The translations under genes were made by a program, and so were the position numbers. Positions 22,297 to 57,200 of a DNA stretch of 64,000 nucleotides are shown here, piece by piece. The notes beneath the pieces were generated by a model. It saw only the letters and a list, made by a program, of their open reading frames with translations. It was not told the origin of the DNA and did not search any database. The first letter of the stretch is position 1. Each line of letters opens with the position of its first letter. This stretch comes from Sphaerolaimus hirsutus (taxonomy: Eukaryota > Nematoda > Chromadorea > Monhysterida > Sphaerolaimidae): NCBI GenBank assembly GCA_964036195.1, contig OZ038453.1, positions 23,088,352-23,152,351 of the forward strand, written 5' to 3'.

Positions 22297-22996
22297 GGAT
22301 TCAACGTGGGACATATTTATAGAGTGACTACACGGCTATGTACATATTTACAGAAGTGGTTCCATTGAATATTAAAGATTTTCGTTCGCAATTTGCGTGT
22401 ATTTTCGTTCGCAGTGCACCTGTATTTTCATTTGCAGTGCTCCTGAATTTTCGTTCGCAATTTATTGCATGTGTTTCGATTTCAGTGTGCCTAGGTTTTC
22501 GATTGACATTGCCATTGGCTGTGCAATATGTGAAAAGACAACAAGGCACTTCCAGACCTTGTAAATCACACTGTAAAATGTATTTAACCCTGTAAAGTGT
22601 AAAAGACCCTGTAAAATGTCATCACCGTTGTTAAAACGTATTTACGTTTACTCAATAAGTACATATACTCAAGTACTGAGTAATTACGTTTATGTATACT
22701 TTGAAAAAAGTAGCTGTACTTGCTTTTACATATACCGTATTACCTCAAATTATCCCCCCCTTGAATTAACCCCCCCTCGAAATACCACCCCCCTAAAATT
22801 TTGCTGAGGAAATAATAAACCCCCCTGGAAATACCCCCCCCCCTAAAATTGAGTGTAGAGAGAACGTACATGACAAATACCGCAGTTTGTGATCTGTACA
22901 CTGCATAACACACGTTCAAAGTGATGATCAAGTGATGTTAGGGAAGGGCTTATGTGTATATACAGTTATATATGCCTATAAACACATATACATCTA

Positions 22997-30023: not shown

Positions 30024-32636
30024 ATGGTGTCCGCCAAAAAAACCGTTAGTCCTACAAGTCGCCGAAATATTTTTCACATTTTTTTTGCGAAACTTCCATC
30101 GCAAAATTCCATTTTTCCGTCAAAAATCGCAGAAAAAGTCCGCGGAAAACATCAACGCCCGTCTGGCGCTGGTGATGAAATCTGGCCGATTTTGTCTGGG
30201 CTACAAGCAAACGCTGAAAACTCTGCGAAATGGCAAATCGAAATTGGTCATTATTGCGAGCAATTGCCCACCCATCAGGTTGTTTTTTTGGGAAACTTTT
30301 TCGTTGCGTAATGACCTAGCACACAAGTTTTCAACCGAAATTTCGTAAACTCATAAATCAGCTTTGAATTTAAGTTTTCTAGAATCTGTCACTTCTTGTT
30401 TATGTCAACTAGTTAAACGTCATCTAATCCTATAAAGCACAACTGTGTTGAAAGCTGATTTACGTTTTCAGTTTTTTATCGGCTGAGTATTGTTCGTGGT
30501 TGAATGACTGAAAAATGTCATGCACATTAGTCAAATATTATGTAAAATGTCAAATATCAGTAAAAATAAATTATTACTCGACATTAGTTGTTACTGAGTG
30601 CTGGAAATTTTACATGACATTCAACAAATTTTTGTGACCTCGTGCACTGGTGCAAGTCTCAATATTTCCACCCAACTTAAAAACAAAATATACGACTTTC
30701 AAAAACAAACCCCCTCAAAACAAAATCAACCAAATTTATTTCCCCCCCCCCCAGAAAATCCGAGATCGAGTACTACGCGATGTTGTCCAAATGTGGCGTG
30801 CACCACTACAACGGGACGAACATCGAATTGGGCACCGCGTGCGGGAGGTATTTCCGAGTTTGCACGCTCAGCATTACTGATGCTGGTTAGTGGGGGGGGG
30901 GTATTTTTTGTAGATTTGGACCCCCGCGGGGGTTCATATAGATAGCAAATCGCTCCTATGGGAGGGATAGATAGCTGAAATTTTTTTTTTTTTGGGGGGG
31001 GGGGGGTTCGCGGGGGTTCAATATATAGGGTTTTCCGAGGTATAGAAGGAAGAAAAGGGGAAAAAATCGCTAAAAGTAGGTAAAAAAATGGCTAAAAATA
31101 CGTATATAAGCACATATATAGCCAAAATAGGCGATAATGAACGGGAACTAGCGATTTTGGAGGCGGAAAACTATTAAAAAGGTACGGAAATCAGCTATTT
31201 TGAGAGAAAATTGGCCAAAAAATTTCAAAAATCGCTCCAGATAGATAGATAGCTGGACGATTGGGGGGGGGGGTTAGGGGATAGTAGGCGAAAATTTTGG
31301 CTCCAGGATAGATAGATAGCTGGCTGATTTGGGGGGTAACCCCCAACCCCCGCCCCACTACTAAACCCCTGGTGCTAGGGTTGGCCGTTTGAATGTTTTT
31401 TTAAACGTTTTTTTTAAAAAAACACGACGTCCGAAATGTTTTTTTTTTTTAAAAAACATCGGCTGAAATTTTTAGTACTAAGCACTAGGTATTTTGCAAA
31501 ATTTTTGCGCTCAAGCGCGCAATTTCACACACAAATTGACATTGGTAGTTGTTTTCATTGGTTTTATTGCATTTTTAGTATCAAAACATCCATTTCTATG
31601 TGCTACCATGGGTGAATAAGCCGACATATGTTGCTGTAATATATAATATGGAGGTAATGTGCTTCCATGTACCTCCACAGTGTGTAACTTCACTCACAAA
31701 GTAACAACCTCCTTTTATAACCTTGTTTGATCACCATTCCGTGCCAAACTTTACCTGAAGTCACGAACATTCGACTATAAGGCGATATACGAACGATATG
31801 TCGACGAAAAAGGATATTTTTGACACAAATCACCACTTATAATGCTATCCCATGGCTCCACAGCCATTATATGGTCATATTTAACATCACAGAGTATTGC
31901 CACTGTCTGATATACTTATATATGTTGACACAAGGTCATATCTGGGAGCTTTAAAAAAACATCGAGTTAAAAAAACGTTTTTTTGCAACCCTACCTGGGG
32001 GGGTTATTTTTGTCTGGGGGTAGTTGTGTACCCTGTTAAGTACGGTGTCAAATTTCATTTTCCGTTTTCCGCAGGCAATTTTTTTTAGTTTTCCGTTCCG
32101 TTTTCTCGCAAGTGCCAAAAATTTCCGTTTTCGTTTTCCGGCAAGTGCAAATTTTTTTCCGTTTCTGTTTTCCGCAGGCAAAACTATTTCCGTGTCCGCT
32201 TTCCGCAGGCAAAATTTTCTTATCCTTTTTCCGGCAAGTGCAAAAAAAATTTCTGTTTACGTTTTTCGACAAGTGGAAAAAGTTTTCCGTTTTCCGTAAA
32301 AAAAATTTGTTGACACACTACTGTTAAGTGACAAATTTTATCTTCAAAGTTTCAAATTTGTGGCCAGGGTAAAATGGCAATGGGTTTTTGCTGTCGAGAC
32401 TTCTTTAGGATTTTTGTGATTGGGGGCTAATTCCGTAAGTGGAGAAGTAAAAAACCATGCTAGAAGTGGGAAGTTAATGTAAAAGAGAAGTAAAACGACT
32501 TTTTTACTTTTTTATGCCTCGTTATGTCGCTTTCTGAATTTCTATTTTATCCTGATTTGCCCTTAATTTTAATTTTTATCCCAAATTTTCAGGCGACAGT
32601 GACATCATTAGGACGATGCCTGGTGCCGAGGCGTGA
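30024..32636 (+). CDS. RPL30: Ribosomal protein eL30 (RPL30), complete, 4 coding exons
   Basis: This is a component of the large cytosolic ribosomal subunit. Coding exons are 30024-30044, 30133-30278, 30755-30885 and 32593-32636. The spliced frame is 113 residues (human 115). It begins MVSAKKT (human MVAAKKT) and continues with [20 protein letters not shown] and [20 protein letters not shown]. It then reads [20 protein letters not shown] and [17 protein letters not shown], and ends [14 protein letters not shown] and stop. Every block aligns with the human protein. Donors are GTTAGT, GTTGTT and GTTAGT. Intron 2 carries a hairpin repeat, and intron 3 (1.7 kb) is packed with hAT-type elements. 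The exons are GC-richer than the surroundings, as expected for a highly expressed gene. Confidence 0.95.
30316..30490. repeat. Hairpin repeat in RPL30 intron 2
   Basis: Contains CACACAAGTTTTCAACCG, AACTCATAAATCAGCTTTGA and the inverse AAAGCTGATTTACG, the arms of the GTCAACTGTAGTTGAC family. It is followed by a TGTCATGCAC/TGTAAAATGTC segment up to about 30640. Confidence 0.6.
30886..31375. repeat. GATA/poly-G family element in RPL30 intron 3
   Basis: Holds TTCATATAGATAGCAAATCG, GATAGATAGCTGG repeats, G runs and a right end ACTACTAAACCCCTGG. It resembles the CAGGGGTCTCC elements at 44075-44570 and 62035-62476 but lacks a clear TSD. Confidence 0.55.
31376..31993. mobile_element. TAGGGTTGG hAT-type element in RPL30 intron 3
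   Basis: Ends are TAGGGTTGGCCG and TTGCAACCCTA. Adjacent bases CCTGGTGC and CCTGGGGG match 6 of 8. The interior shares ACATTCGACTATAAGGCGAT and GGTCATATCTGGGAGCTTTT with the copies at 40354, 47945 and 52513, and includes a TTTTGCGCTCAAGCGCGCAA palindrome. Non-coding. Confidence 0.75.
32041..32320. mobile_element. TTTTCCGTTTTC-array element, perfect 8-bp TSD
   Basis: Duplications CTGTTAAG (32033-32040 and 32321-32328) flank inverted ends TACGGTGTCAA and TTGACACACTA. The interior is a loose tandem array of TTTTCCGTTTTCCGCAGGCA. It adds another array type to the 8-bp-TSD families. Confidence 0.8.
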
Positions 32637-34230: not shown

Positions 34231-37200
34231 ATGCCCCATTCTCACTACCCAATAACCGTTGGGGGCGGAGCCAGCCAATCAGCAACTTCTAGCGTCGCCT
34301 CAACCCCCCAAAATGCCGGATCCGAATTTTCCAAAAGTGACGCCAGACGCTTAGCTGCCTTGCTAGATAATTTGGTCGATCGCAGAGCTTGGGATGATGT
34401 TTATAGCGCCTTGAAACATCAATTGGTCGCTCGACCGGGTGGGTTTTTTTTTTTTTTTTGGGGGGGGGGTTAGTGTGGGTGCTCCTTGAACGTTGGAAAA
34501 TGTCAACGACAATCTCGAATGTCCTGTTAAGAACGAATGTCGTGGATTTCTGTCAGGTTGTGTAAAATGACCTGTATTATGTCAATTTTTAGTTTTTTTC
34601 GCTGGTTGTTTGACATTTATCATTACATTTCACAGTGCACTTTACATGTTCTGGAGGTGGCCTTTGTGGGGTTTGGCGTCCAAAATACGTTCCCAGGGGT
34701 ATCCAGTGGGGGGTTCGCCCCTGTACGCTCCTGTGATCTACCGTGGTTCCTCGAAATACCCCCCGGCGGTGATTGTTTCGGCTAGGGCCCATTACGCATC
34801 AAAGCCCATTCCGCATGTAGACCCATTATAGACACATTATGCCTGCAGGGGTAAGAAAGGGGGGTGGGTAACACCACCCCAAACCGCCCAGCTATCTATC
34901 CATCCCTGGTGCAAATCTTTTGGCTACATTCCCTTGAACACCCGCAAATTGCCTAGCTATCTAGCTATCTGGAGCGCTTTTGAGCAATTTTACCAATTTT
35001 CACCAAAATTCCCTGATTTTCCTACTTCTTATAGATTTTCACCTTCAAAAAAAACTAGGTCATGCGTTTTATTACCTATTTTAAACATGCCAGGTATAAT
35101 TAAATGCGTTCCGGGTCAACATGCGGAATGGGTTTAGATGCAGAATAGTGCACTGCCGATTGTTTCAGCGTGGGTATTTCGAGGGGGGTTTATTATGACG
35201 ACTTAATTGAAAAATTACAATTTAAAAAATTTAATATAACTTTTTATTGATATTTATAAATCGAAAAACACAATTCAAAATCCAAAATCACCCACCACCC
35301 CGCAATTCACCCAGCCGCGTGCATTGGACCGCTATTGGAACGATACATCCAATGTGGCTCCGCCCACTGCGTGAACCTTTTGACATTGGTCAGGGAACCA
35401 GCGCACAGTGTCTGTTTTGGGAGGGGTTTGGGGTTTAAGTCGGTTTGGGGGTTTAAACAAGTTTTTTTTTAAACGTGGTTGTTGAACAACACTTTTTTGT
35501 GTTCCTTAGTCTTGGACTGAATCTGCGCACTGTAAGTGCAAAAATTGCAAAAATTTGTAGTATGCCGTGTAATAGTTTAGACCAATTTGTCTAATGCCAT
35601 GTGAAATTTCACTTACTTTTCTAATGTCACAATTATGACGATTGTCAGAAAAGTTTTATTTTACATCTTTATAATAGTATTTACATGCATAATTACCCAT
35701 AACTTTCATGACCCCTGACGAATTACTTGGGTACGGGACGTTCCCCGCGTGCGTGTTTTTATGCCGGATATATTTATTACGTAAAATATTTCGACAAAGA
35801 ATCAGTTTAAAAAACAAACAATTTTAAAAAACACCCTTCTATTCAGATGCTTCTCGACCGTTTAGTGGAAGCGATGCGACAAAATCCAATAGAGTGTCTC
35901 ACAATTTTGGGACACCTCCTACAGAGAAAACCTTCGTGGATTGCGTTGGTTTGCCAGCATCAAATTTTAAGAATTGTCACCAATTTGGCGGGACCCCATG
36001 CCGCTTCTGTTGGTTTTTATTGACGTGAATTATTTGTGTGTTCGAAAAGTAGTGGGACAGCGCTTTGAAAATGGCTGGGATATAGTAGGGGTTCCTTATT
36101 TCCCAATTTTGTGGCATTTTTTTGAATTTTCAGACATTTTTAAGAATTCGCTGAGAAATAGTACAAGATTCACTTGTTATCTATGGAAAATAATAAAATA
36201 TCGGGCGACTAAATTCTTTTCAGGGATTTTCATACGGTTTCGATGTGAAGACAATATTTAAGTTGAGAAAATCGATGAAATTGACAATATATAGGTTCGA
36301 TTTGGGGAACGTATTTAGGGTTCAAACTGGATTGACTTTTCGGGATCGGGATCGGGATTGTTTTTTTGAGATTTCGGTATCGGGGTCGGGATTGACCTTT
36401 CGGGATCGGGATCGGGATTGGCGTTTTTTCGGGATCGGGATTTAGGCCTAAAACAATTGGTTTTAATGGGGTTTTTTCCTGACATTTCCCAAAATGACCC
36501 AAAACACCAAAAACAATGGATGCCAGAAACATTGGATTAAATTGCCATTCAAAACAATGCTATGGATCTATTTAGGCACTGCGCAATGGGCTGCCTGGCA
36601 TTGTCATTCACACCACTGTCTACCATATGCATGTGTATTAACCTTAAACTTGGTAATGGGCACTGTATTGAGTCCATTTGTAGTGGTATCTATACCCATG
36701 GAACAGAGATATAGAGGGAGGTGGAGAAATACGCGCCTGCGCGCAAATTTTTTGTAAACTGCATGAAGGACGTACGCAGGGGGGCGGGGGGGGGCGGCCG
36801 CCCCCCCCCGTTCCCGGGCCGGACTCGAAAATTTGCCAGGAATGGCACTTTTCTAAAGCGATTTTGTAGGCACTTTCAAAAAATTTTGCGCGCAAGCGCG
36901 CAAATCACCATCCCATTGTTTAATGTGTATTTTCAGGAGCCTGAAAAGCATTAAAACTGTCCAACATGCGTATTAGTCCTATATATAGGTCTAAATCCAG
37001 GGCCGTATCCAGGGGGGCGGGGGGGGGGCTGCAGCCCCCCCCCCCTCCCGGGGTGAGGCCTAAAAAGTCCCGGAAAATGCTATTTTTCCTATACATTTTT
37101 CGAGGATTCTTCAAATTTTTGCGCGCAAGCGCGCAATTTCTTCCCCACACATTGTATTTTTAGCGGATCGGCCCCCGTAAACAAATATCCTTGAAAATGA

Positions 37201-40200
37201 ACACATTTTTGCGACTTTCGCTGCATATGTATGCATATTTACATCTATATAAAGCAGTTCCTGGCGCTGGCGCAACGCCAATAGCGCCATGGCGTGGCGC
37301 CTTGGTATGGCGCTAGCGCCAAAACACCTTTCCGTCCCTATATAGGGGAAAAATTTAGGGGGGGGGGGGCTGAGCCCCCCCCCCCCCCGCTCGCCGGCCC
37401 CCGTAAACAAGCAGCCCCCCCGCTCAAAAATCCTGGATACGTCCCTGTCTAAATCGGTACCTATAGAGTATACGTGGGCGCCAGCGCCAACGCCAATACT
37501 GCCATGGCGCTGGCGTTTACAAATGGCGCCAGCGCCAACGCCAATACTGCCATGGCGCTGGCGTCTACAAATGGCGCCAGCGCCATGGCTCCATTCCTCT
37601 CCTAAAGGGGAAAATTTTAGGGGGGCGCCCCCCCCCGTTCGCCGTGCTCGGTAAACAATCCGCACCCCCCGCTCAAAAATCCTGCGTACGTCTCTGAACT
37701 GCATACAAAATGGTTCTTTAAAACGGCTCCGCACCTGTACGCACAAACGCCCGGCGCGCACAAAATGAAAGTCCGGTACGCACAAACGCCCGGTATGCAC
37801 AAAACTGTAGCTGTGTGCGTGCCGCACAATGTGCGTGCCAGTCGTTATGTATTTGTATAAAATAAAAAAATAACATTGCCACCAATCTCACCGAGTGTTT
37901 GAGTGCATGTTGGGTGCATTCACGTGCAGGGACGTAGCCAGGATTTTTGAGCGGGGGGGGCGGATTGTATACGGCGCCCGGCGAACGGGGGGGGCGGCGC
38001 CCCCCCCCCCTAAAATTTGACCCCTGTGGTAAAGGAATGGCGCCTTGGCGCCAGCGCCATTCGTATGCGCCGCGCCATGGCGCCATTGGCGTTGGCAATG
38101 GCGCCAAATACCGCTGTACATGTATGTATTTTACATACATAGACTGCGACCGGGACAGATTTTGGGTGCTTTTTTGTCCCAAACTATGGGTATCAATGAA
38201 ATATACTGTAGGGCGACGAAATGCGCGCTTGCGCGCAAAATTTTTCCGATCTACCAACAAAATCGCTTTTCGGAAGTGTCATTTCTGGCATATTTTTGTG
38301 TCCGACCCGGGAAGGGGGGGGCGGCCGCCCCCCCCCCGCCCCCCCCCCTGGCTACGCCCTTGTTCACGTGTAATTCACGTGTATTCACGGTACGCACAGA
38401 GCATCATATTTGTGCGTACCGGACATTTGTGCGTGGCGGGCTCAATTTTGTGCGTGCCGGGCGTTTGTGCGTAGCAGGCCTGGCCATTTCTGGCACCTTT
38501 TGTGGCTGTGAATTTTTCCGGGATCGGGATCGGGATTGGGGCATTTTTTCGTGATTGGGATTGGGATTTTCAAAGTCTCTGAATCGGGATCGGGATTGGC
38601 TTTTTCAAATTTCGGGATCGGGATTGAGGTTTCGGGATCGGGGTCGGGACCGCAAAATCCCGAAATTTCTCGGGATTCGGGATCGGGATCCCGTTTGAAC
38701 CCTAAACGTATTTCCGGTTTGCGTTGTGCGCCGCCTTAAATAAGCTTCCAACGCATTTTAGTTTACCTGAATGGGTCACTGCTAACCTCCGTCAACTGCA
38801 GTTGACGGACACTTCATTCAGGTAAACTCAAAGCTTATTCATGAGTTATCGAGAAATTTCCATCGTAAACTAGTGCATGTAGAGCCACAAAGTGACACTC
38901 CCAAATTTCAGGCTTCGAAATCCCTACACAACTCCTGTGCGAACGCTTTTTCAGCACTTTGCATTTTGGCTGCACTGGTACCCCATTTCGCACTTTTAGA
39001 TCGCAGAAGTTTGGATGATACTTTAAATTCACTTTGGAGGGCCGGAGTGTTTTTGCACAGAGTTATGGCTGAGGTAAATTTGTCGTTTGGTTTGAGTTTG
39101 CATCGATATGGTTTTGCAAGGATTTTGTGAAGATTTATTAGAGCGGGTTTCAATGGACTGGGTTTCCGAATGGGTTTCAATTTGTGCGGGCTACTATTAC
39201 TTACAGGCCCCATCCCTGAATCGATTCTTATCTACCTAAGTGGAGTAAATTTTTCCGCAATTTTCGTCCAAGAGCTAATTTTTGCACCCTTTGTCAATTT
39301 TCACTTTCAAAATCGCTGATCATTTTGTTTTATTACCCATCTCAATGTGCGCATTTCCTTTTAACCCTATTTATATTTGCAAAATATTGTGCAAAATCGT
39401 AACTGCATGCAAGGAAAATCATTTATGGACTCACTCACAGAAAATATTTTGCATAGCCACTGGATAGGGTTCAAACGATATGACTTTTCGATATCGATAT
39501 TCGATATTCGATATTTTTTTCTGAAACTCGATATTCGATATCGATACGATATGGAACCTCGATATCGATATTCGATATACGATATTAAAAAATGGTCGAT
39601 ATTCGATATTCGATATTTTCGATATTCGATATTGCGATTTGCTTTTGCTATAGCAAGGCATATTTCAAGTGACATATTGTATTTTCATGTGGTTGCACAC
39701 ATGGTTAATCATCTCTCTACTTAAATGTGAATGGTACATACAAGTGATTTTAACAAGGTTTACATCACTCAAAAGTAGAACATGTAGAAAAAAAACATGA
39801 TGAATCAATGTGTATCAGACAAATAACAATTGGTAGATATTACAGTTTATACTGATAACCTGATTGCTAAGGGCATGTTGCAAAAAATAGAATATCAGCA
39901 TTTTCTGGCTTCAAATTTAGCCTCCAACGAAAATGCCATTATAAGTACTGTACTTTAACTCATCTAATACAATTCTCAGATCAGATCAAGCACATCAGAT
40001 CAATCATAAATATCTCAAAATGAAAATGATAACTTTTTTTGGGACACAATATAGGTTCAATATATCGAAAAAATGGTCGATATTCGATATCGATTTCGAT
40101 ATTTTTTCAAAATTTTCGATATCGATATTCGATATTTTTTCAAAATTTTCGATATCGATATTCAATATTCGATATTAAAAAATGGTCGATATCCGATATT

Positions 40201-42218
40201 CGATATTCGATACGATATATCGTTTGCACCCTACCACTGGACACATTTTTTCTTTAAAAACAACGCAGCCACATCTAACTGGACTCGCAAATGCCGCTGA
40301 GCGAATAAAATTTGCATTCACGGTTTTGTTCCAACGGTTATATGTGGTCTACCTAGGGTTGGCCGATGTTTTTTTTTAAACGTTTTTTATTAAAAAAAAA
40401 CGTTTTTTTTTAAAAAAAAACATGACGTCCGAAATGTTTTTTTTTAAAAAAAAACATCGACCGAAATTTTTAGTACTAAGCACTAGGTATTTTGCAAAAA
40501 TTTTGCGCGCAAGCGCGCAATTTCACACACAAATTGACATTGGTGGTTGTTTTCATTGGTTTTGTGGCATTTTTAGTATCAAAGTATCCATCTCTATGTG
40601 CTACCATGGGTTAATAAGCCATCATATGTTGCTGTAGTTATATAATATTGAGGTAATGTGCTTCCATGTACCTCCACAGTGTGTAACATCACTCCCAAAG
40701 TAACACCCTCCTTTTTTAACCTTGTTTCATCACTATTCCGTGCGAAACTTTACCTGAAGTCACGAACATTCGACTATAAGGCGATATACGAACGATATGT
40801 TGACGAAAAATGGATATTTTTGACACAAATCACCACTTATAATGCTATCCCATGGCTCAACAGCCATTATATGGTCATATATAACATCACAGAGTATTGC
40901 AACTGTCTGATATACCTATATATGTTGACACAAGGTCATATCTGGGAGCTTTTAAAAAAAAACGTTTTTTATTAAAAAAAAACGTTTTTTTTTAAAAAAA
41001 AACGTTTTTTTTTAAAAAAAAACATCGAGTTAAAAAAAAACGTTTTTTTTCCAACCCTAGGTCTACCCGTGCAATATGCTCTCATTTTTCAGGTGAATTT
41101 ATTTTTGATTTTTTTCTTTTTTTCTTTTTCAATGGAGTACCTAGTTGAGTGCCAGTGAACTATACATGTATTAGTAAACTCAGTAATCAACTTTGAATGG
41201 CGTGTGAGTTTACTGAAATTAGGTGTTTGTCAACTACAGTTGACGGAGATTGAAAAATAACTCGTTGCAGTTAACTCAAATGTATTCATGGTTGATTTAC
41301 GAGTTTTCTAAATTTTCAAATAAATTTGAAAACGCAAACGAAGTGTTCTTAAAACACACATTAAAGGTCATTTTTGATATCTAATGAATATTTCCTTCGC
41401 AGGCGTAAATTGACTCAAAATTTCACGCCAAATTCCAGTGCGGGAGAAATTCGCACCAGTCATTCTGCTATTAATCAACATTTCGGCTTTGACATCCAGC
41501 AACAAGTTTCAAATTCCAATGAAAATGGATTTCAAGGGAACTTAGCCGTCGATTTTGGGGTTGAAGCGCTTTTTATCAACGTTTTTCAGCCGATTTTGGG
41601 CACTTTAAAAGTCCACCCGCACATGTTTTTGTATTCTAAAGAGGCGGAGTTTAGGAGAGATCGGTTTGTGACTATTTATTGTGTTTTTTTGGTGAAATTT
41701 GGCAAATTTGGTACAATTCATTTGGTACAATGTCACAAAATCATAACTGTCAGAATAAGTTTTTAAAGCAGTACACTTTTTAAGCTGTTAGTGGTTACAC
41801 TGGTAATCGACCATAACCTAAATATCTTAATAAATAGCCAAATTTTTTAATTTAAAGTTTTTTAGCAAAATAGTCATTGGTTTCACTGGGTGAAAAAAAG
41901 CACAAATTATCACATGACATGATTCATCGAATTATGGTAGTATTCTATGCAAAGAACTGTATGCGTTCCAGAGAATAGTAAATTAACACCTTTTACATCC
42001 TTAAAACATCTCCCACTTTCTACCAATTTCTTCGCAGATGGGTCAACAAGGAAATCCATGATATTATCGCGGAATGTTCAAGTTTGATCATAAGTCCAGA
42101 AAATGAGAATTTTGGCCCGATGCCAATGCAAAACTATGACCAAAATTTTGCCGAGCCTTTTGACACATGTTGTGGTGTTGTTTCTGACAGAGTTTTTCAA
42201 CCATTGGATGCCACTGTT
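34231..42218 (+). CDS. TSC1: TSC1 exons 1-7: N-terminal hamartin core (HEAT-like helical region)
   Basis: The start ATG at 34231 opens a Ser/Thr-rich leader. A helix follows containing ARRLAALLDNLVDRRAWDDV, which parallels the human start around GELLAMLDSPMLGVRDDV. Exon 2 reads LERYIQCGSAHCVNLLTLVR (human [20 protein letters not shown]). Exon 3 reads LLDRLVEAMRQNPIECLTIL and LLQRKPSW (human LLDRINEY, IRLQPSW). Exon 4 is a hydrophobic helical repeat. Exon 5 reads RLYVVYPCNMLSFFR (human RLYGMYPCNFVSFLR). Exons 6-7 give LKVHPHMF and RWVNKEIHDIIAECSSL (human VRIHPELV and RRWKRLETHDVVIECAKI). Exon 6 has an insertion of about 45 polar residues relative to human. The exon 2 donor (GTCTGT) is weak but is the only one that keeps phase. 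Confidence 0.85.
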
Positions 42219-45200
42219 GTTAGTATGAGTTGACTGTTTTCGGTTAAAATATGTTCCAGTGACTTGACACTGTGCATGCACGGGTAGTTATGTTCTACAT
42301 TGGCAGTGTGCCAATGCCAACTAAGTCCTGCAGAGTGATGAGAAAATATGTTGCTTTAAAAATCTAAATGTAAAATGTTTTGAAAATCTAGAATTTTACC
42401 CTTTGTTTACAATATTTTCCCGAAAAATCTAGTTCCCTATTTCCCCAAAAATCAAGATTCCCACTTCCCCCCCCCCCAAAAAAAACAACATTTTTTCCCA
42501 GCGCGCCGACTCGAAACTTTACGAACAGCCCAAACAAAGTGCCTCTGAAACGATCGGCTTATCTACACCGCCGAGGGAAAATGCAGAAAGCAGCCCCTTG
42601 ATTTCTGAGATGAGCGAAAAGTCCGTGGACACTCGAAAATTGTCGGGAGGGAGGAAAAAGTTTGGGGAGTTTAGTGGAGATAATTTTCCTGGGTTTGTCG
42701 CTTTGTGTAGTTTGGGGGAATGTTTGGAAGTTATTTTTGGGGTTGGCGTGCGTTTTTTAACATTTTTCAACCGTTTTTTAAAACGTCTTTAAAAACGTCG
42801 TTTTTCACCCCTAGTTTGTTACGATATCCCTTCGTATTAGCGATTTACTATCTACTCATATGAAGCCCCGCAGTGGTCTAAATTCAGTAAACCCCTGATT
42901 AGGGTTCAAACGGGTTCCCGATCCCTAATCCCGAAAAAATTCGGGATTTTGTGGTCCCGATCCCGAAACTTCAATCCCGATCCCGAAATTTGAAAAAGCC
43001 AATCCCGATCCCGATCCTGATCCCGAGATTTTGAAAATCCCAATCACGACCCCGAAAAAATTTACAGACACAAAAGGTGCCAGTAATGGCACTTTTAAAG
43101 GACCATTTTGTATGCAGTTTGCAAAAAATTTGCGTGCAAGCGCGCATTTCCCCACCTCCCTCTATACCTATGTTGCGAGGGCATGGACACCAGTACAAAT
43201 GGACTCAATACAGTGGTTATTACGATAGGTTAAGGTTGATACACATGCATGCATATATGGGGAGTTCCGTTCCAAAAGTTCACAAGCGCCAAATCCAGAA
43301 AAATCGAGTTACGCGTGGGTTTGACCTCCACGTATAGTTTTTCACATTTTAGAAAAAAATCAGCGTTATAGTCCATATCGTTCCCGAGATACAGTGGTAA
43401 CGATTTTCAAACAAATCGCAATTTTCACATCGAAAGTTCACATATCCATGACCAGTCCCCTATGAAAAACAGAACTTTCACATCGAAAATGCATAAATCC
43501 ATCTCAGACAGCCGGAGTTTCATATCGGAAATGCATATATCCAAAAATTAGTTTCATTTCCAAAAGTGCACGTGTGCTTCGGATCGGCCGCGAAGAGCCG
43601 GCCGGAATTCCCATACAAAAAAAGTTTCATTTCCAAAAGTACTCACGTGAATTTCGAAATCTATTTTGCACTTGATATCGAATACGCGTGTATATATTGA
43701 TCTGAAAATTTAGGTAGGGGTACTTTTACACACGGGCTTTGCAGTGGTATAATTGGTTTTTGCCTACGATGCACCGTTAAGAAGTAATTTAACTTTAATT
43801 TTCAAATGTACAGATTTGTTCCCAATTTTAGGTGATTTCTAAAATATGACATAACTCCCTAAATATTTGCCGGCCGACAAAAGTTGTAAATACAAAACTT
43901 GTAGAGAAATGTCCGATTTATCTGAAAAGTGCAGGGTAATCTTGGTCGCCTAAACATGGCGCCGTCGGGCCATCGCCAAACTTTAAAACGCGATTTTGAA
44001 AAATTGAAAATTGTGGATATATGCGTTTTTGGAATGAAAGTCCCCATATGGTAGACAGTGGTGTGAATGACAACCAGGGGTCTCCAGGATTTTGGCCCTC
44101 GCGGGGGCTGGATAGATAGCAAATCGCTCCTCCGGAGGGATAGATAGCTGGAAAATTTTTCTGGGGGGGCTTGGGGGGGGGGCTCGCGGGGGCAAAATAT
44201 TTAGGCTTGTTCAGTGCATAGAAGGAGAAAAAATCGCTGGTAATTGGTTAAAAGTGGCTAAAAGTAGGTTTAAAATGGCTAAAAACAGGCATATAACCAT
44301 GCATATAGCTGGAGAGCACGATTTTGAAGGTGAAAAACTATAAAAAGGTGCGAAAATTAGTGATTTTGAGCGAAAATTGGGGGAAAATTTCTCAAAAACC
44401 ACTCCAGATAGATAGATAGCTGAGCGATTTGGGGGGGGGGGGGTCTTTGGGGGTAGTAGCCAAAAATTTTGCCTCGGGATAGATAGATAGCTGAGCGGCC
44501 TCCGGGATAGATAGATAGCTGGCGGATTTGGGGGGGGGCAGCCCCCCCCCACCCCCCTAGGAGACCCCTGATGACAACGCCAGGCAGCCCATTGCGCAGT
44601 GCCTAAATGAATCTATAGCATTGTTTTGGATGCCAATTTTATCCAACGTTTCTGGCATTCATTGTTTTTGGGTGTTTTGGGACAATTTGCAAAATATGAG
44701 GGAAAAAACCCCTGAAAACCAATTGTTTAGGCCTAAATCACGATCCCGAAAACAACGCCAATCCCGATCCCGAAAGGTCAATCCCGATCCCGATCCCGAA
44801 ATTTCAAAAAGCCAATCCCGATCCCGAAATCTTAAAAAAAAATCCCGATCCCGAAAAGTCAATCCCGCTTGAACCCTACCCCTGATGTCGATAATGTCAA
44901 TAAAAAATGACATTATAAATCACAGCCACATCTCAAATACGGCCGGGCCGCAATTGGACACTAACGCGCCAAATTCCAAAACGTCTCTGCAAGCGGATAG
45001 ACAGCGCTATGGAAGCGGCACCAGTTCAATAAAGGCTACATTTGCCGCACTTTTTGACAAGACACAAAGGGGTGCAAAAGGGGGTTAGGTTGGGGGTCAA
45101 CTAATGGGGGTGCTCATATATTATTTGGGTGGGGTAATTTTGACTGCTTTCGACGGGTTTCTTTCAATCTAACATTTTGACGGATTTTGCAAACGAATTG

Positions 45201-48200
45201 CGCACACAATTTTGAATTTCTACATGATTATTGATACACAGATGAATGAAAAATGTTGAACTAGCATTGAACGACATAACAAACATTTGCATGGTCCCGG
45301 GGTGGCACACTTTACACTATGACATTAGCTAATGTTGAAGTTTTAACTGCTAAAAAATGTATTTCACCGCACTTTTCGAATCAAAAATAGCAACGGTTTG
45401 GCATGTAATCAATCACTGACCGCACTTCACAGGAGCAAAAACATCCACAGGGAATGCAGCCCAAAATTATCCCGAATATCCCCATACAATGTTCACATCG
45501 AGTTGTAACACCGCCGTGCAAAAAAGTTTGGATGCGCACAGCACTGCTCAAGTTGATTCGGACAATTCTAGTCAAATTTTCGTGTCTGGCAAGCTGCCAA
45601 GATCTTCCAGTGTTTCTTCAAAACGAAGGAAGACTTTCAATTTCGGCAGACAGCAGAGTACTTTGAGCAGGACCAGTTGTGAAACCAGGCAGTTTTCGTT
45701 TGCTGGTGCGTCGTGTTTTTTAAAAAATATTGAAGTTTTTAAATGTTTTTTACTTATTTTGCATAACAATGCATTTTTGTGAACGAACAACTGATTCGTG
45801 ACGTCATCAAAAATGAAAAAAATTGTTGGGTAAAATAAAAACGGTTTCAAACATGAAACATTGTAGTTTGTACTCGACTCCGCCCAGGCGTTTAGTGGAT
45901 TTCGACCCCTCCGAGGATTCATATAATTAGCAAATCGCTTCTCCGGAGGGATAGATAGCTGAAAAAATTTTTGGGGTGGGGGGTTCCCGGGGGTTCAATA
46001 TATAGGCTTTTCCAAGGTATAGAAGGAAAAAAAATCGCTAAAAGTAGGTGAAAAACAGCTCAAAATAGGTATATAAGGCACATATAGTGTACAAAATAGC
46101 TGAAAATAAACAAACATATGAACTAGCGATTTTGGAGGGGAAAGACTAGAAAAAGGTATGAAAGTTAGCGATTTTGAGTGAATATCGGCGTGAAATTTCT
46201 CAAAAAATCGCTCCAGATAGATAGATAGCTGGCCGATTTGGGGGGTAACCCCCCCCCCCCCCCTCCATACTGAACCCGTGACTCCGCTTTTTTCAACATA
46301 GTATTTTTTCTGAAAGTGCGTGCATAAGTAACCAGCTCGCAATTTAGGGCCCACACACGCTAGTTGACATCGCAAATTCGTGTCAACTCAGTGTCAATTA
46401 AATAACACAAAAAAAATTGTTAGAAGCATCACATTTAAACTAAACAATGAAAATCAAGTGTCATGGTGTAAACTTAACTATGCTCTATCAGATAGGAAAG
46501 TCGAAATCGCATAATTCACTAAAATTTAGTTGACACGAATTCAGTTGACATCCAGCTTGTGTGGCGCCTTATCGACTTAGACATAAGTAACTTCGGATGC
46601 ATACTTTGCGGTCAACCGAGTATACGTTTCTTCTTATTTTCCTCATTTTATGTCCCCATTTTTCCGCAGGTCTGGAACGTTCTCGTTCCTCACAAATCAG
46701 CAGTAATTCACTTCTGACTAATCAACAATTTCCTTCGGATTTCGCAAGTGGCCTTGAGCATCAGGGAAATGTCACTGTGATAGCTGTGGATAAACCGGTC
46801 ATTAAGGAAAATGGTTTGTTTTTTTAAGGATTATTTTTTGGTTTTGATTTTGTCTTTTTAAGGCGCTGTTCAGACCAAAATTTTGATTTTTGATTATTGT
46901 TTTGGAATGAAAATTAAATATTTTTTTCCGAAATAAAAGGGTTTTTTTTTCAAGGGTGGAATTCAAAAGGGCGGAATTAAAAACGGGGGCGGAATCCAAA
47001 AACGTTCGAACTGCCCTTGATTTCAATTCCGCATATGAAACGTTCGAACACTTTGCACGATGGCGGAATTGTCCCGGATTGTGCATGGGTGGAATTATTT
47101 CAGACAGGTAGGGAAGTGCAAAATGTCTGAACCGCCCTTGGAATTCCACCTTGGTGGAACGCAAAAACATCCGAACCGCCCTTGACAATTTTGAGTTTGC
47201 AGTGCGCCATCTAGGCAAGAAAACATTGGGACACTTTCTAGAGGGTGGAATTCAGTTTCGGTTTACACAAATATGCCACACGGTGAACTTCAATATCTTT
47301 TAAACAAGTGGATATCATTAAAAAATTTCTTTATTCATTTTTGAAGACAAAGCCTACATCTACCTATAAAAATTTTTTCACAAATATATTTGGTAAGATA
47401 AATAAGATGTGCTTCTCATAACAACCTTCTCTAAAGGGCGTATCTATTAAGTCAAGGGTGGAATTGAAAGTGTCCCACTGTTTTTGAAACGTTTTGTTAT
47501 GATATGCAAATGGACAAAAACTGTGAATTCATCCGGATTCGTGTGAATTTCATCCGAATGCCCTAAAAATGCCACATTTTTCCTAAATAAAAATGTTCGA
47601 ACCGCCCTTGGAGTTCTGCCTTGGTGGAACTAAAAAACGTTCGAACCGCCCTTGAAAATTTTGAGTGTGCGGTGCGCCAATTTGATATGGACTCGGTTGG
47701 TTGGGCAATCCAGGACAAGTGTCGGGCACAAGTTCGTACCGATTACAGAAATGGATTTTTGAGCGGGGGGGGCTGCTTGTTTACGGAGGCCGGCGAACGG
47801 GGGGCTCCAGCCCCCCCCCCCCGCCCCCCTGAATACGGCCCTGATGTGCGGTGAATTGGTATTTATGAGAATACGACTTTTTTGATAATTGTGTGTATAT
47901 CAATTATCCGTATTGTATTGACTTTCAATAATCCGTATTGTAACTAGGGTTGGAAAAAAAACGTTTTTTTTAAAAAGCTCCCAGATATGACCTTGTGTCA
48001 ACATATATAGGTATATCAGACAGTGGCAATACTATGTGATGTTATATATGACCATATAATGGCTGTGGAGCCATGGGATAGCATTATAAGTGGTGATTTG
48101 TGTCAAAAATATCCATTTTTCGTCGACATATTGTTCGTAGATCGCCTTATAGTCGAATGTTCGTGACTTCAGGTAAAGTTTGGCACGGAATAGTGATCAA

Positions 48201-51200
48201 ACAAGGTTATAAAAGGAGGTTGTTACTTTGGGAGTGAAGTTACACACTGTTGAGGTACATGGAAGCACATTACCTCAATAGTATATAGTACAGCAACATA
48301 TGACGGCTTATTAACCCATGGTAGCACATAGAAATGGATACTTTGATACTAAAAATGCCACAAAACCAATGAAAACAACCACCAATGTCAATTTGTGTGT
48401 GAAATTGCGCGGTTGCGCGCAAAAAATTTTGCAAAATACCTAGTGCTTAGTACTAAAAATTTCGGTCGATGTTTTTTAAAAAAAAAAAAACATTTCGGAT
48501 GTCATGTTTTTTTTTAAAAAAAACGTTGTTTTTAAAAAAAAAACGTTTAAAAAAAAACATCGGCCAACCCTAATTGTAACAAATGTATTTCGCTATGAGA
48601 AATGTTACATTGCTATTTAAAAGACTCATCATTTTTCCCGGGTGAACACTATCAAACATCAACCAAAAATCCCCAAAAGTTTTTCCAAAAAAATCATAAA
48701 TATATTGTTTTTTAATCTTGTATTTTTCAATTTCAGCAAGTGGAACAAATTCAGTTGACCAGAAATTATTTTGCAGTCGGACATCGCCAGCGAGCAGTTT
48801 GGCGCAGCAACGACCGCGCGCTTCATTGGCACGTTTTTTACTATTTTTCATTTCTTTTAATCAGTAAAAAGCTATAAAAATTGGAAATTTTGAGGCAAAA
48901 TTTCAGTTAAAGTTTTTCAACATTCGCGCCAAATACCGTATTTCCTCGAAATACCCACCCCCCCTCGTTAGACCACCCCCCTCTCGAGACCACTATGAAA
49001 CAATCACCCCCCTCGAAATACCCCCCCCACATTGAGTGTAAAGAGAACGTACATAACAAATGCTGCAGTTTGCGTTCTGCGTAGTGCAGAATACACGTTA
49101 AAACAATGTCGGAAACACATTAGAACAGTGTTTATACCATCTACGTACTGATATTAGTCTACAAGAGTCTATACATGTCAGTTATTGATGCATTTTTCTA
49201 CCCCTGCGCACATCACAAACAACGATTCTGTACTACCATTTCAAAAAACTTCTGGCGAAATTATACCCCCCCCTCGAAATACCCCCCCCCACCCGTTTAC
49301 CCCCCCCCTCTCTCGGGAGCACTATGAAACAATCACCCCCCGGGGGGTCTTTCGAGGAAATACGGTAGCTAGAGAGCTGGGCGATTGGGTGGGCAGTTCA
49401 CGGGATAGCACAAATATTCATCCGGGATGGCCAGTTTGTTTGGCGATTGGGACATACCCAATTAAGAAATTTGGGGTTATTTTGAAACCATTGAATATCA
49501 CTACTTCAGGGTTTAGCGGGAACTATAAAAACTGCACTTCTGGTGTACCACCTGCGCGGGCATTTCTTAACAGTAAAATTACGGTACGCAGTCCACACCG
49601 CAGACCGAAGAGGCCACCGAAGCCACCGAAGCGCTAAGTTCCGGTTCCGGTCAATCCGACCACCAACCCTGCACTAGCTCAAATCAAAATCAAAATTCCG
49701 AGAATGAAGTTTTTGGAGCGACAATGGCCGATGGCGGTCGACATTTTGTCGATTTGCAGAGAGTGGCTGAGATTCAGAAAATGGAATTGGAAAAGTGCCA
49801 AGGGGGTGATAGGGAGATTGAGGTTGCGTTTGGTAAGAAAGGTGAGTTTTTGGGCATTTTTTGGGATTGGGGTGCGTGTGGAGGGGTCTACCGCAAATCA
49901 TCGAATAAGACCCCCCTTGAATACCCCCCCCCTCCTTGAATACCCCCCCCCTCCTCCTTAAATACCCACCCAACCTTGTTCGACAGGTGAGGAAAAATAT
50001 TAGGTTGAAATAAAGTTCTGTCAGTTTCTAGAAACGAAGCCGGGCGGATCATAAAAGCACAGACTGACAGAACTTTCTTTGCAACCTGGTACCCCACCTT
50101 TGAATACCTCACCCCCTGAAAACGATACCACAGAAATTGAAGAACCCACTGATAAGCAAAATAAAATGCCCACTGATAGCTAACTCAAAAAAAAAAAATT
50201 TTCTTCAAAATTTTATAAAAAACTTTTTAAAAAAGTATCACCCCCCACTCAGCCACGCACACAGTTCCGTGCAACGAGTCGCCTTACAACAACAATGACG
50301 ATATTACCGTAACTGACGAATTAAAAGCGGCTACCGTAACCCCCGGCGAGGCGACGCGAGAAAATGACGCACACGCGAATATTCACACTGCAGTTGATGC
50401 GTATATAAGGGGGGTTAATAGGGCCAGATTCCATTCGCAGTGCTGGGCTCAGGTGTGTACATTTTTATTTATAATAAACTGGTGCAAATTCCGGTAGTAG
50501 GGAATATAAAAAAAACTATTTTGAAGTGAGAAATAAAAAAATAAAAAATATTTTTAACTTTTTTGACTTTTCACTTATAAGTTTAGTGTTTCTTTCAATT
50601 TAATTTCGTTCTCACATCTGAAATGGTTTACTTCTCCACCAGTGGAATTGACCCCTGATTTAGGGTTGGCCGATTTTTTTTTAAACGTTTTATTTATTTT
50701 TTAAACGTTGTTTTTTTAAAAGAGTTTCGAAACGTTTTTTTTTCTTTCAAAAAACAGCGGAAATTTTTAGTATTATGTGTAAACTAAGTAGTGATGATTT
50801 TTTGTGATTTCATACATATGTACATTTATGAGTCCCATTCTGTCGTACGTTGGCCGATTTTGATGCCCTTCGAGTATGTTGGGGTTTTGGGTCTGGGCTA
50901 TGACGGATTGTTTTGGTTTGCTCGAATAATCCCCCAGTCCCGAGATAAGGGGGGTTTATAAAAAGGTGGTCATTTCTGCCAATTTGGAATTTGGTCAAAG
51001 TCAATGTACACACTGTTTACATTTGATCACAACTTAAAATTCGAGGGTTGATTTCACGGGCTTTTGTAATGTTTTTGATACTTCCATTTCTGCTAGATGC
51101 AATAAAAAACGTGCGGCACCGAAAACCCGTTTTATCCAAACAGCTTTTTTAATTTCAAATCTTGCAATTATGATTGTGCAAACTCTGTAAAGTATCAATA

Positions 51201-54200
51201 TCACGCTCAAAAAGTCAAAATATTGCAGCCGCCTATTTCCCTCGCGGATCTGGGCCAAAGTTCAACTGATTTTGAAGATAATCATTTTCCGCCAATCTCT
51301 GGATTTTGCGCCGATGAAACTGGTGAAGGGGAAAATGCGAATTTAAAAATGGGATTTTCGATGGGATCCGATGATGCCCCGGCTATAAGGTTTGTTTTTT
51401 TTTGTATTTATTTTGAACAGTAATTCTTTGATCAATTGTAAAATTACCCAGGTCGCAGTCCGTAGCCTGAAAAGTGTAATTTAAAGTGTCAAATGTCTGT
51501 AAAATGTCACACAAATTTGTCAAATGTCAAAAGTTTAGTAGTGAAATATTGTAATTTCTTATTTTAAGTGACAAAAAACGTGGCATTTAACACTGTACGG
51601 GGTGCGGGACTGCTCCCAGGGGGCAATTACTTCTGGGGGTGTGTCGGTGCACAAGTAAAAACCCGGTGCACAAGTAGAAAAAGTAGTAGAAGGGCGCCAT
51701 GGTGTGGCGTACTTTGGCGCCCTCAAATGGCGCCATTCCATCACTAATCATGTGTATAGTTGTTGTTTTTGAAGGGGGGGTCGCAGGGGTTCAATATATG
51801 GGGTTTTTCAAGCTTTAGAAGGAAAAAAGGGAGAAAATTCGCTAGATACATATGTAGATAGCTGGAGCGTTTGGGGGGTAACCCAACCCTCTTCCAACCC
51901 CCTACGCCATTACTTCTCACTTATATTTTTCTACTTTTCCACTTGCGGAATTTGTGCCTTTTTCTTCTTTTTTATTTTTTTTTTCAACACAGAAAACGTT
52001 CCCGTTCGTGCCCGGCGCCGATGTATTCCGCTCTGCGAATTGCAGTTTTACAAACCGACGCAATCGACGGTGGCGATTCGATTCATCAGCCAGTTGGGAT
52101 ACAGGTAAAAGGGTGTTCACACGGGTTTATTTACTAGGGGTCAACTAGTTTTGATAATTTGTAATTTCTATCACCTGGCGGCAATCCCGAGCCCTGTAAA
52201 GAGTGAAATGTTATGTAAAAAGTCATGCTAAGTGTCAATTCTCATGAAAAATGTAAATAAAAGTGTCAAATGTTATGTAAAACGTCATGCAAAGTACGGA
52301 TGGCTGAAAAAGGTTTTTTTTCAATGACAGGGTTTTAAAAAATCTACGTTTTTCAAAAACGGGTTTATTTTTAAATAAAACCGGGTTTTTTTTCAAAAGC
52401 TCCCAGATATGGTCATGAGTCAACATATACAGGTAAATCAGACAGGTGACAATACTTGTGATGTTAAATATAGCCATAGAATGGCTGTAGTGTCATGGGA
52501 TAGCATTATAAGTAGGGTTGGCCGATGTTTTTTTTTAAACGTTTTTTATTAAAAAAAAACGTTTTTTAAAAAAAAAAAACATGACGTCCGAAATGTTTTT
52601 TTTTTAAAAAAAACATCGACCGAAATTTTTAGTATAAGCACTAGGTATTTTGCAAAATTTTTGCGCGCAAGCGCGCAATTTCACACACAAATTTACATTG
52701 GTGGTTGTTTTCATTAGTTTTGTGGCATTTTTAGTATCAAAGTATCCATTTCTATGTGCTACCATGGGTTAATAAGCCGTCATATGTTGCTGTAGTATAC
52801 AATATTGAGGTAATGTCCTTCCATGTACCTCCACAGTGTGTAACTTCACTCCCAAAGTAACAACCTCGTTTTATAACCTTGTTTGATCACTATTCCGTGC
52901 CAAACTTTACCAGAAGTCACGAACATTGACTATAAGGCGATATACGAACGATATGTCGACAAAAAATGGATATTTTTGACACAAATCACCACTTATAATG
53001 CTATCCCATGGCTCCACAGACATTATATGGTCATATATAACATCACAGAGTATTGCCACTGTCTGATATACCTATATATGTTGACACAAGGTCATATCTG
53101 GGAGCTTTTAAAAAAAAACGTTTTTTTTTAAAAAAAAACATCGAGTTAAAAAAAAACGTTTTTTTTCCAACCCTAATTATAAGTGGTGATTTCTGTTAAA
53201 AATATATGTTTTATGTCGACTTATTATGGATATCCCCTTTTGTCGAACATTCGTGATTTCAAGTGAAAGTTGGGTATGGGGGCAGTCCCAAGCCCTGTAA
53301 AGTGTAAAGTAAAGTGTCAAATGTAAAGTCAAATGCATAGTAAAGTGTCAATCAAAACAAAAAAGAAAATATTTTTATACTGAACTTTGCATGACAATTG
53401 ACAGTTTACTTTGCATTTGACTTTACATTTGACACTTTGCTTTACACTTTACACGGCTTGGGACTGCCACATGGAGACGTGCTTGAATAAGGATATAAGA
53501 GCAGGCTAACACTTTGGCAGTGGTGTTCACACTGCACAAGTATGTGGGGGCACATTGGCTGTATATTATATACTACACTAGCACATCGTGGCTTATTATG
53601 ACAAATAGCACAAACAAATGGAAGCTTTTACACTAAAAATGCCTCAAAACCAATGAAAACCACCACAAATGGTAAATTACAGGTGAAATTGCGCGCTTGC
53701 GCGCAAAAAAAATTGCTAAATACCTAGTGCTTAGTACTAAAAATTTATGGTCGAGTTTTTTTAATGGTCGATGGTCGGGTTTTTTAAAAAATAAAACGTT
53801 TTTTATAAAAAAAACCTTGGCAATCCCTAATGCAAAGTGTAATTGTCATTGCAACTGACACCGTACATTTCTTACGACAATTGGCACTTTGTTTGACCTG
53901 TGTCATACTAATTTACACTTTGCATGACAAATTGACACTTTACTTTACATCTATCATGATAGTTGACACTTTTCATGACATTTGACAATTTACTTTACAC
54001 TTGACAGGGCTTCAGACTGCCCCCAGAACATGTTCCCTTCTTTACATAACCAAAAATTCCAGTTGACAAGCGGCGATCCCGCAAAAAGTACCGCCAAAAA
54101 TCCAAATGCCACCGAAGGATCGATCCCGTTGGAGAAAGAATTTCCCACCATTTCTGGCCCAGTGCCAACTGCTCCGCCTATTGGAAGTGGGCGGAGTTCA

Positions 54201-57200
54201 AATCAGACATCTAATAGCGTGTTTTATGACGCGATTTTCAGCCAATTGAGGGACAGTGAAAATATATTTGGCGTTCAAAGTGGTCCAATTGAAAGGTGGG
54301 TACAGTTTTTTTAAACTTTTTTATATTGATCGAACAGTTCCACACCCTGTGAAATGTAAAATTTAATATAAAATGTCAATTAAAACGATAATAATAAAAA
54401 CTTCCTGTTTCAACATCCTGTCCAAAAGTTTCAACATTTTGTATGACAATCGACAAATTTGTATGACATTTACATGACACTTGACACTTACTTTACACTT
54501 TACAGCGTGCGGGACTGGCATGGGACAGGTTAAAAAACCTGCCAACCCTATTTCACAAAAAAAATACTAAACAAACGATGTTCGAAATCAGAATTTTTCT
54601 CAGCAAACCAACGAAAATCGTGCAACCCGCAATAATGTCAAATGTTTTGTCAGAATATTTTCGTTCGAGTCAAAAATTGAGACAAATACTCGAGTATCAA
54701 AGTCAGAAAAATTCGGATGGATTTATATCTATGGAAATGGATGTTTTGGCACATGTCCAGCCGCCGCAAAATTTGAAAGGGGAAGCCCTGGTTTGTTGTT
54801 ATTTATGTAAATATTTTTTTATTTCTGATATTGGGTTTTAAAAATCTGATTTTAACGCTTTTACTTAATGAAATAATTATACTGTAATTTTATAAAACGA
54901 TATTAAAATTGTATTTGCAAAAATTTGGGTTGCATTGCGGCTATACAATAATTCGGTTTAAACCAAAGCATGTGCCTAGATTGAAGTGACAAAAAAAGTG
55001 CTAAAATAAGTAGAAAGTAACATACCAACTAAACATAAATATATTCAAGAATAATAAGACACAAGTAAATTTATAAATGGAAAAATTGTAAGTTCATTTA
55101 CCACGTTTCTCGTCTCTTTAGGCCTTAAATTTTGCGGAATTCCGGATTTATCTACATTTTATAACTTTTATTTTTACAACACAAAAACGTGTCAAAATAA
55201 CTTCCGTCTTTTAGGTTGACTATCTGCAAAATGAGTGCTGCATGTTGAAACAATTGTTGGCATATGAAACTCTGAGTAGTCAAATGGCACAAAACAGGGC
55301 CAGGGCACTTTTTGGTTTGTTTTTTAATATTGTATTTTTTTGGATTCACAGGATCTCAAATTGATTTGCATGTGCAAATAGGGGATTTTGTAAGTACCAG
55401 GGGTATCTTGGATTTCGACCCTCCGAGTGGTTGGAAAGATAGCAAATCGCTCCTCCGGAGGGATAGATAGCTGAAAAATTTTCTGGGGTGGGGGGGTTGG
55501 GGGGGTTGTGGTGGTTCGATATATGGGCGTTTTCGGGGTATAGCAGGAAGAAAAGGGAGAAAAATCGCTAAAAGTAGGTGTAAAATAGCTAAAAAATGGT
55601 ATACAAGAGCATTTAGTACTAAAAACAGCTGAAAATAGACAAATAGGAACCAGAACTATGATTTTGGAAGTGAAATTCTATTAAAAGGTATGAAAAATAG
55701 CGATTTTGAGCGAAAATTGGGGTATAGTTTCTCAAAAATTGCTCCAGATAGGTAGATAGCTGGGCGGTTTGGGGGGGGGGGGGTAACCCCCCCCCCATTC
55801 GAGATCTCTGGTATGTACCCACATTCAATTAAGTGTAAATGCTATTCAAAAATTTGGTGCATGCTGATTGGTCAGTGACCCTGCACCAGTTGACAATCAC
55901 AGCGGATGTCAACTGGGTCCACTGTATTCATTTCACAAATCATTCATTCCACTGTATTCATTGGGTCCCCGAACCAGGGGTTCAGTAGGGGGGGTTACCC
56001 CCCCCCCCCAAATCCGCCAGCTATCTATCTATCCCGGAGGCCCGCTCAGCTATCTATCTATCCCGGAGGCAAATTTTTTGGCTACTATCCCCTAACCCCC
56101 CCCCCAATCGTCCAGCTATCTATCTATCTAGAGCGATTTTTGAAAAAATTTCGCTCAAAATCGCTAATTTTCGTACATTTTTATAGTTTTTCACCTCCAA
56201 GACACCTCCTTCAAGTGAAAAAAAACAGTGAAAAATAGCCATTTTTCACTGTTTTTCACTTGACACTTTTTCAAGTGATTTTCAGATATGAGTGAAGTGA
56301 AAAAAGTTCACTAATGTCATTGCGCAGCGTTTTTCACTTCACTCATATCTGAAAATCACTTGGAAAAGTGTCAAGTGAAAAAAACGGGCAAATGTGCGTA
56401 ACGGGCAGATGTGCGTATCAGTGCACCCCCTTGGCATTAAACCAGTTGACGCATTGTAGGCAATTTCGTTGGACATATTTTAACTGGTCTATATTTGTCG
56501 ATTTAAAAAAATATATTATTTTATAGAAATTCCTTCGCAGCGCGCCTAAAACAGTGTCAAATAACGTCCGATCAACTTTCGGCCTCGCGGGCTGAAAATC
56601 ACAAATTGCAGACTTTAGTAACAATGTTGACTACCGGTTTGAGTGAATTGAGAGCGGAGAAAATTCGCACTGGCTCTGAGCATAGGCAGAGAATTTGCGA
56701 AATTAATTTGTTTGTGAAAAAGTTGAAACAGGAAAGGGACAGTTTGATGGCAAAATTGACCATTGCAGAGGTTTGCGTAGAAATTTTACGTTTGATGGAG
56801 TTAAAGCAAAACTTTTTTGTTTTTGGACTATAAATTTAGATATTAGCTATAATTTCACGAATTTAGGGGGGGGGGATTTCTCGCCTGGTTATTACCACAC
56901 TGGTTTTCACCCAAAATTTCTGGCAGTTAGGAGAACTCAAATCAATTTTGAACGCATTTTAGTTTATCAGAATGGGGTGTCTGTCAACTACTGTTGATGG
57001 ATGTTAGAAAAGTCATTCCGGTAAACTCGAATGCGTTCAAAGCTGATTTCTGAGTTTTCGGGATTTTTGCAGAAAACTAGTGTGTGTAGGCACAAAGGGA
57101 GGCTTATCTTTTATTTAATTTCATTTGGGAGTCTTTCACCTTGCACGCCTGGTTCACGCTGGAAGTTTGCCAACGATATTTAACACCTGCGATTTTGGTG

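Follow-up and report, generated by a model that had tools for sequence, protein, structure and literature searches.

A hamartin gene with an insertion in exon 5

The 64-kb stretch of DNA analyzed here (the window) carries a gene for hamartin (TSC1), and its fifth exon contains an inserted element. The model comprises the following features.

34231..45705, plus strand: first ten model exons of hamartin (TSC1), with GT-AG joins and consistent phase; borders chosen by eye
34231-34438, 35315-35409, 35847-36008, 38912-39073, 40269-41092, plus strand: exons 1-5, of which exon 5 contains the element
41403-41663, 42038-42218, 42502-42692, 44926-45083, 45433-45705, plus strand: exons 6-10
40269..41092, plus strand: exon 5, with 110 coding bases that the insertion splits into 78 + 32
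40346..40353, plus strand: left target-site duplication GGTCTACC, with the candidate donor GT at 40347-40348 inside it
40354..41059, plus strand: the element, a putative 706-bp non-autonomous hAT-type MITE with TAGGGTTGG...CCAACCCTA ends
41060..41067, plus strand: right target-site duplication GGTCTACC, whose first G completes the candidate acceptor AG (41059-41060)
54009..61426, plus strand: candidate coiled-coil exons of the same gene, open in one frame; assigned by eye and weaker than exons 1-10
54009-54295, 54506-54790, 55215-55314, 56541-56770, 59287-59466, 60780-60878, 61316-61426, plus strand: coiled-coil pieces; some borders uncertain, linking exons partly resolved

With 40347-41060 omitted, the ten exons encode a stop-free product of 600 aa. 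It matched the Pfam Hamartin family (PF04388) with an E value of 9.8e-28 and 97.8 bits (cut-off, 25.9) and the PDB hamartin chains 7dl2_D and 9ce3_C with an E value of ~3e-15 (3.4e-15). The PDB alignment takes in the block LFxRLYxxYPCNxxSFxR around the insertion point. The original prediction was correct in placing a 706-bp element with hAT-like ends inside a hamartin coding exon, and its numbering of that exon as the fifth agrees with the gene model used here.

In the coiled-coil region, the candidate exon at 54009 has no AG immediately before it; the AG ends one base earlier. Two of the coiled-coil pieces were tried singly in Pfam and gave no significant hamartin match, and a protein search with a rough 1,068-aa hamartin model, which scored 7,996 candidates, returned no relatives at an E value of ≤0.001. 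Neither an Rfam scan of the window at the gathering threshold nor a tRNA scan gave a hit. Palindromic TCGATAT arrays lie just upstream of exon 5, at 39487-39638 and 40077-40212.

The element and its family

We regard both the insertion and its hAT-type anatomy as well established. Perfect 8-bp copies of GGTCTACC flank the element on both sides, as had been predicted, and its terminal inverted repeats, TAGGGTTGG and CCAACCCTA, are exact over 9 bp. Its arms consist of ~20-bp A/T-rich repeat units. Three other full copies of the family lie in the window.

52513..53175, plus strand: second family copy, with perfect duplication ATTATAAG; outside modelled exons
47945..48572, minus strand: third family copy, with perfect duplication GTTACAAT (element orientation); outside modelled exons
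31376..31993, plus strand: fourth family copy, with a decayed duplication; upstream of hamartin exon 1

The exon copy is 706 bp long and the others are 663, 628, and 618 bp, and the 8-bp duplication is perfect in three of the four, with 6/8 bases matching in the fourth. The family is short, non-coding, and present in several copies (four full ones of 618 to 706 bp in 64 kb), as MITEs are. The hAT consensus is a terminal repeat of the YAGGG type, and the short terminal inverted repeats of this family are of that type. Because of these ends and the 8-bp duplications, we infer that the element is a non-autonomous member of the hAT superfamily. hAT elements prefer targets of the form nTnnnnAn; two of the other copies match this preference, but the exon copy does not.

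The two longest plus-strand stop-to-stop open reading frames (ORFs) of the element were without a Pfam match, and there was no Pfam match to a transposase among 17 of the window's ORFs, which are part of the full set. Neither a viral contig set nor a genome contig set contained an exact match to a 29-base core of the element (0 in each). The copy at 52513-53175 appears to sit inside an older relative of the family, which is matched on the minus strand at 52355-52513 (84%) and 53511-53762 (80%), and a further left element end, with no partner nearby, starts at 50661.

If insertion were random, the probability that at least one of the four full copies would lie in coding DNA is ~0.18 (64 kb, with ~4.8% identified as coding). 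With four full copies in 64 kb, an insertion into coding DNA is therefore unsurprising by itself.

Predicted effect of excision on the reading frame

40347..41060, plus strand: proposed new intron, predicted from sequence; 714 bp, made up of the element and one duplication; phase 0, between two valine codons

Unspliced, the frame runs into the element, reads YVVYLGLADVFF, and stops at 40377 after eight foreign codons. Removing 40347-41060 leaves the frame-exact coding sequence YVVYPCNMLSFF, with GT...AG borders, so the claim that this excision of 714 bp restores hamartin without a frame change holds. Of the 1,794 8-mer positions that the modelled coding sequence offers, 12 (0.67%) allow exact restoration by an offset-matched GT/AG pair; the same test gives 1,436 of 63,993 positions (2.2%) for the whole window. 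We also tried 537 donor-acceptor pairs around the insertion, of which 7 leave the frame open through exon 7. Three of those seven use an acceptor at 41093, where none of the right piece of exon 5 is left, and we interpret them as joins to exon 6.

Skipping of exon 5 was considered as a rescue and rejected; its 110 nt are not a multiple of three, and so skipping breaks the frame. We also rejected the reading of the element as an ancestral intron. The perfect duplications and terminal repeats mean that it is an insertion.

The anatomy suggests a route to a new intron. The family is abundant locally, and one of its non-autonomous hAT-type elements entered hamartin exon 5 and duplicated GGTCTACC. 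The pre-mRNA may then be spliced, at least partly, from the GT at 40347 in the left duplication. For the acceptor AG, the element would contribute its final A and the right duplication its first G, and the join would give back the original mRNA. Its T8 tract and CCAACCCTA end would provide a ready-made 3' splice site, completed by insertion in this orientation into a target that begins with G. Such splicing may be leaky because the donor is host-derived and weak.

Strength of the candidate splice sites

The candidate donor, GTG/GTCTAC, scored -6.1 on a generic matrix, below all 16 modelled hamartin donors (lowest, -4.8). Donor usage in the hamartin model (34438-60878) is unusual: 8 of the 16 donors start with GTT, including 4 with GTTTGT, and none is GTAAGT. 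For this reason, the generic matrix underrates hamartin donors. On the gene's own matrix, the candidate scored 3.8 and beat 4 of the 16, a score that is reached by 16% of the 3,408 plus-strand GTs in the window. Its U1 pairing was -2.6 kcal/mol; among the 16 modelled donors, 14 pair more strongly, 1 equally, and 1 more weakly. A competing donor lies just inside the element.

40358..40359, plus strand: competing donor GT, AGG/GTTGGC, 11 bases downstream of the candidate donor

This site scored 6.7 on the gene-specific matrix (versus 3.8 for the candidate), -4.8 for U1 pairing, and -1.7 on the generic matrix, and on the gene's own matrix it is the best GT within 40322-40472. Joined to the same acceptor, it would add 11 bases and break the frame.

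The candidate acceptor consists of the T8 tract followed by CCAACCCTAG (full site, CGTTTTTTTTCCAACCCTAG/G). On the generic matrix, it scored 6.5; of the AGs tested across ~40360-41092, only one other, at the end of exon 5 itself, also exceeded 3. On a matrix made from 15 hamartin acceptors, 14 of which have CAG, its score of -3.3 fell short of every one of the 15 (lowest, -0.3), and 46% of the window's AGs equal or beat it.

The terminal repeats and the near-palindromic duplications pair in the predicted RNA fold, which puts the donor GGU and the acceptor in a stem. We weigh this predicted stem against precise splicing; with the two sites facing each other in it, it could either draw them close or mask them.

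Age of the exon copy

Private substitutions were counted in the four full copies. The exon copy has 11 in 488 columns (2.25%), and the others have 8, 6, and 15 (488 to 490 columns). No column of the compared core splits the copies 2:2. This indicates a star-like tree, and therefore the private changes look as if they arose after insertion. Read simply, the pattern would reflect a single burst with later mutation, the exon copy being about as old as the others, although four copies may conceal subfamilies and the source copy could already have carried private changes. The private divergence of 2.25% hints that the exon copy is not brand new. It is also the longest of the four, and so it could be young.

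No stop occurs in the 2,379 nt made up of exons 6-10, the seven coiled-coil pieces, and the right-hand part of exon 5. When decay without selection was simulated at the divergence of the exon copy, 2,379 nt stayed stop-free with a probability of 0.105 and free of both stops and frameshifts with a probability of 0.0015, values that are partly circular, as the exons were picked for openness, and that presume that the private changes postdate the insertion.

Precise splicing and its alternatives

On sequence grounds, we consider it about evenly balanced whether 40347-41060 is precisely spliced, at least in part, to restore the mRNA. As the original prediction allowed, the element might instead be an ordinary disrupting insertion, present on one haplotype or as a young allele, not precisely spliced and with its GT/AG match due to chance, and this is a serious possibility that falls short of even. 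Hamartin would then be truncated after ~237 native residues plus 8 foreign ones, and the transcript would probably undergo nonsense-mediated decay. A family with four full copies in 64 kb makes an exon landing not rare (~0.18 in this window), the donor is very weak, and the acceptor is weak on the gene's own matrix. The perfect duplications and the greater length of the exon copy fit a recent event, but two of the other copies are less diverged than it is. Exact restoration would arise by chance at just 0.67% of positions in the hamartin coding sequence, although a selection effect may enter here, as chance GT/AG cases in exons would be the ones singled out across many windows. That the remaining modelled exons are open also argues against a simple disruption.

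Splicing of the element mainly through other sites, giving an altered rather than a restored product, is quite unlikely. Two such products are among the 7 of 537 pairs that keep the frame open through exon 7. One would join the donor at 40358, which by the gene-specific matrix is the top-scoring GT of its neighborhood (40322-40472), to the start of exon 6 at 41403; it is in frame, but it replaces the conserved PCNMLSFFR with LG and so cuts into the YPCN block, for which human hamartin has an aligned counterpart. The other would run from a GT at 40368 to 41061, in frame with seven added residues, but it relies on a poor donor, GAT/GTTTTT (local score, 2.8). We regard it as very improbable that a misassembly joined the element to the exon or that the locus is a second, dispensable hamartin copy. 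The surroundings are repeat-rich and have long A/T tracts, which favors such explanations, but a perfect 8-bp duplication with intact ends would be hard to produce by misassembly, and ten exons are open and in phase with the element omitted.

The original prediction of a transposon-born intron is supported in part: its anatomy is present, and the fit to hAT holds (perfect duplications in three of four copies). Its splicing is a possibility that would depend on a donor weak on most measures, with a better one 11 bases downstream. By the usual mark of an introner, splice signals supplied by the element or its duplication with the mRNA preserved, the insertion has GT/AG borders and an exact frame, a weak donor, and an acceptor that is good or poor depending on the matrix. 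If it is spliced, a conserved growth-control gene would hold a newly made spliceosomal intron of hAT-type origin whose duplications are still intact, and one could measure directly how weak a donor suffices when the element supplies the acceptor. If it is not, it would be an ordinary loss-of-function insertion.

Comparison with known systems

The hamartin element appears similar to maize Ds (Dissociation), a hAT element that is likewise non-autonomous and makes 8-bp duplications; when Ds lands in a gene, it can be removed as an intron. Wessler in 1987 and Giroux in 1994 reportedly described Ds insertions spliced from RNA. The two cases differ in that splicing was shown in vivo for Ds, whereas the hamartin element is known from its sequence only. 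PMC4256211, which cites the Ds papers, describes plant transposon insertions that behave as removable introns; in one case the removal was precise enough for function to be kept.

The proposed route had been likened to algal introners, and the division of splice signals is indeed in print: in Symbiodinium microadriaticum, the 5' splice site comes from the duplication and the 3' site lies in the element (Fig. 2B legend of PMC9860276). The same source counts 175 genomes with introners among 3,325, some of them from animals. The route is therefore less new than had been assumed. Like the hamartin case, the Symbiodinium introners split their signals between duplication and element and have terminal inverted repeats. 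They differ in having 4-bp duplications and in forming a family of introns; the hamartin case is an 8-bp, putatively hAT-type insertion in one exon, and none of the window's three other copies falls within a modelled exon. Duplications of 8 bp are also found with the Aureococcus introners (Fig. 2F legend of PMC9860276), but as described there these introners bring both splice sites with them and lengthen the mRNA by 12 bp, whereas restoration of hamartin would be exact. The introner elements of Amoebophrya, according to PMC7789003, similarly have pairable inverted repeats at the intron ends and direct repeats over the exon borders. They differ in being among non-canonical introns and in having direct repeats of 3 to 5 nt, and the authors exclude a general transposase-driven spread of these elements.

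In the open-access literature on introners, Ds splicing, and hAT exon insertions or new introns, we found no report of this hamartin case. The kind of system is thus already known, and a hAT-type case would be a new member, and a rare one for an animal host, which the gene makes likely. It is unlikely that the whole hAT-type MITE family acts as an introner genome-wide, with the T8-CCAACCCTA end as a standing 3' splice site, G-initial, GT-bearing targets becoming precise introns, and hamartin as one of many. Were this so in an animal, it would be rare, as among animals and land plants PMC9860276 places introners in only two groups, both of them animals.

Other repeats in the window

A 29-bp unit, AGTTTTGGA..GTTCCCAATCGAATTGG, recurs in closely similar form in two arrays, at 7737-8491 (26 copies, 89% alike) and 21630-22297 (23 copies, 95% alike); the arrays give long open frames on both strands. 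Arrays of the TCGGGA/ATCCCG hexamer type are scattered over 36329-60712.
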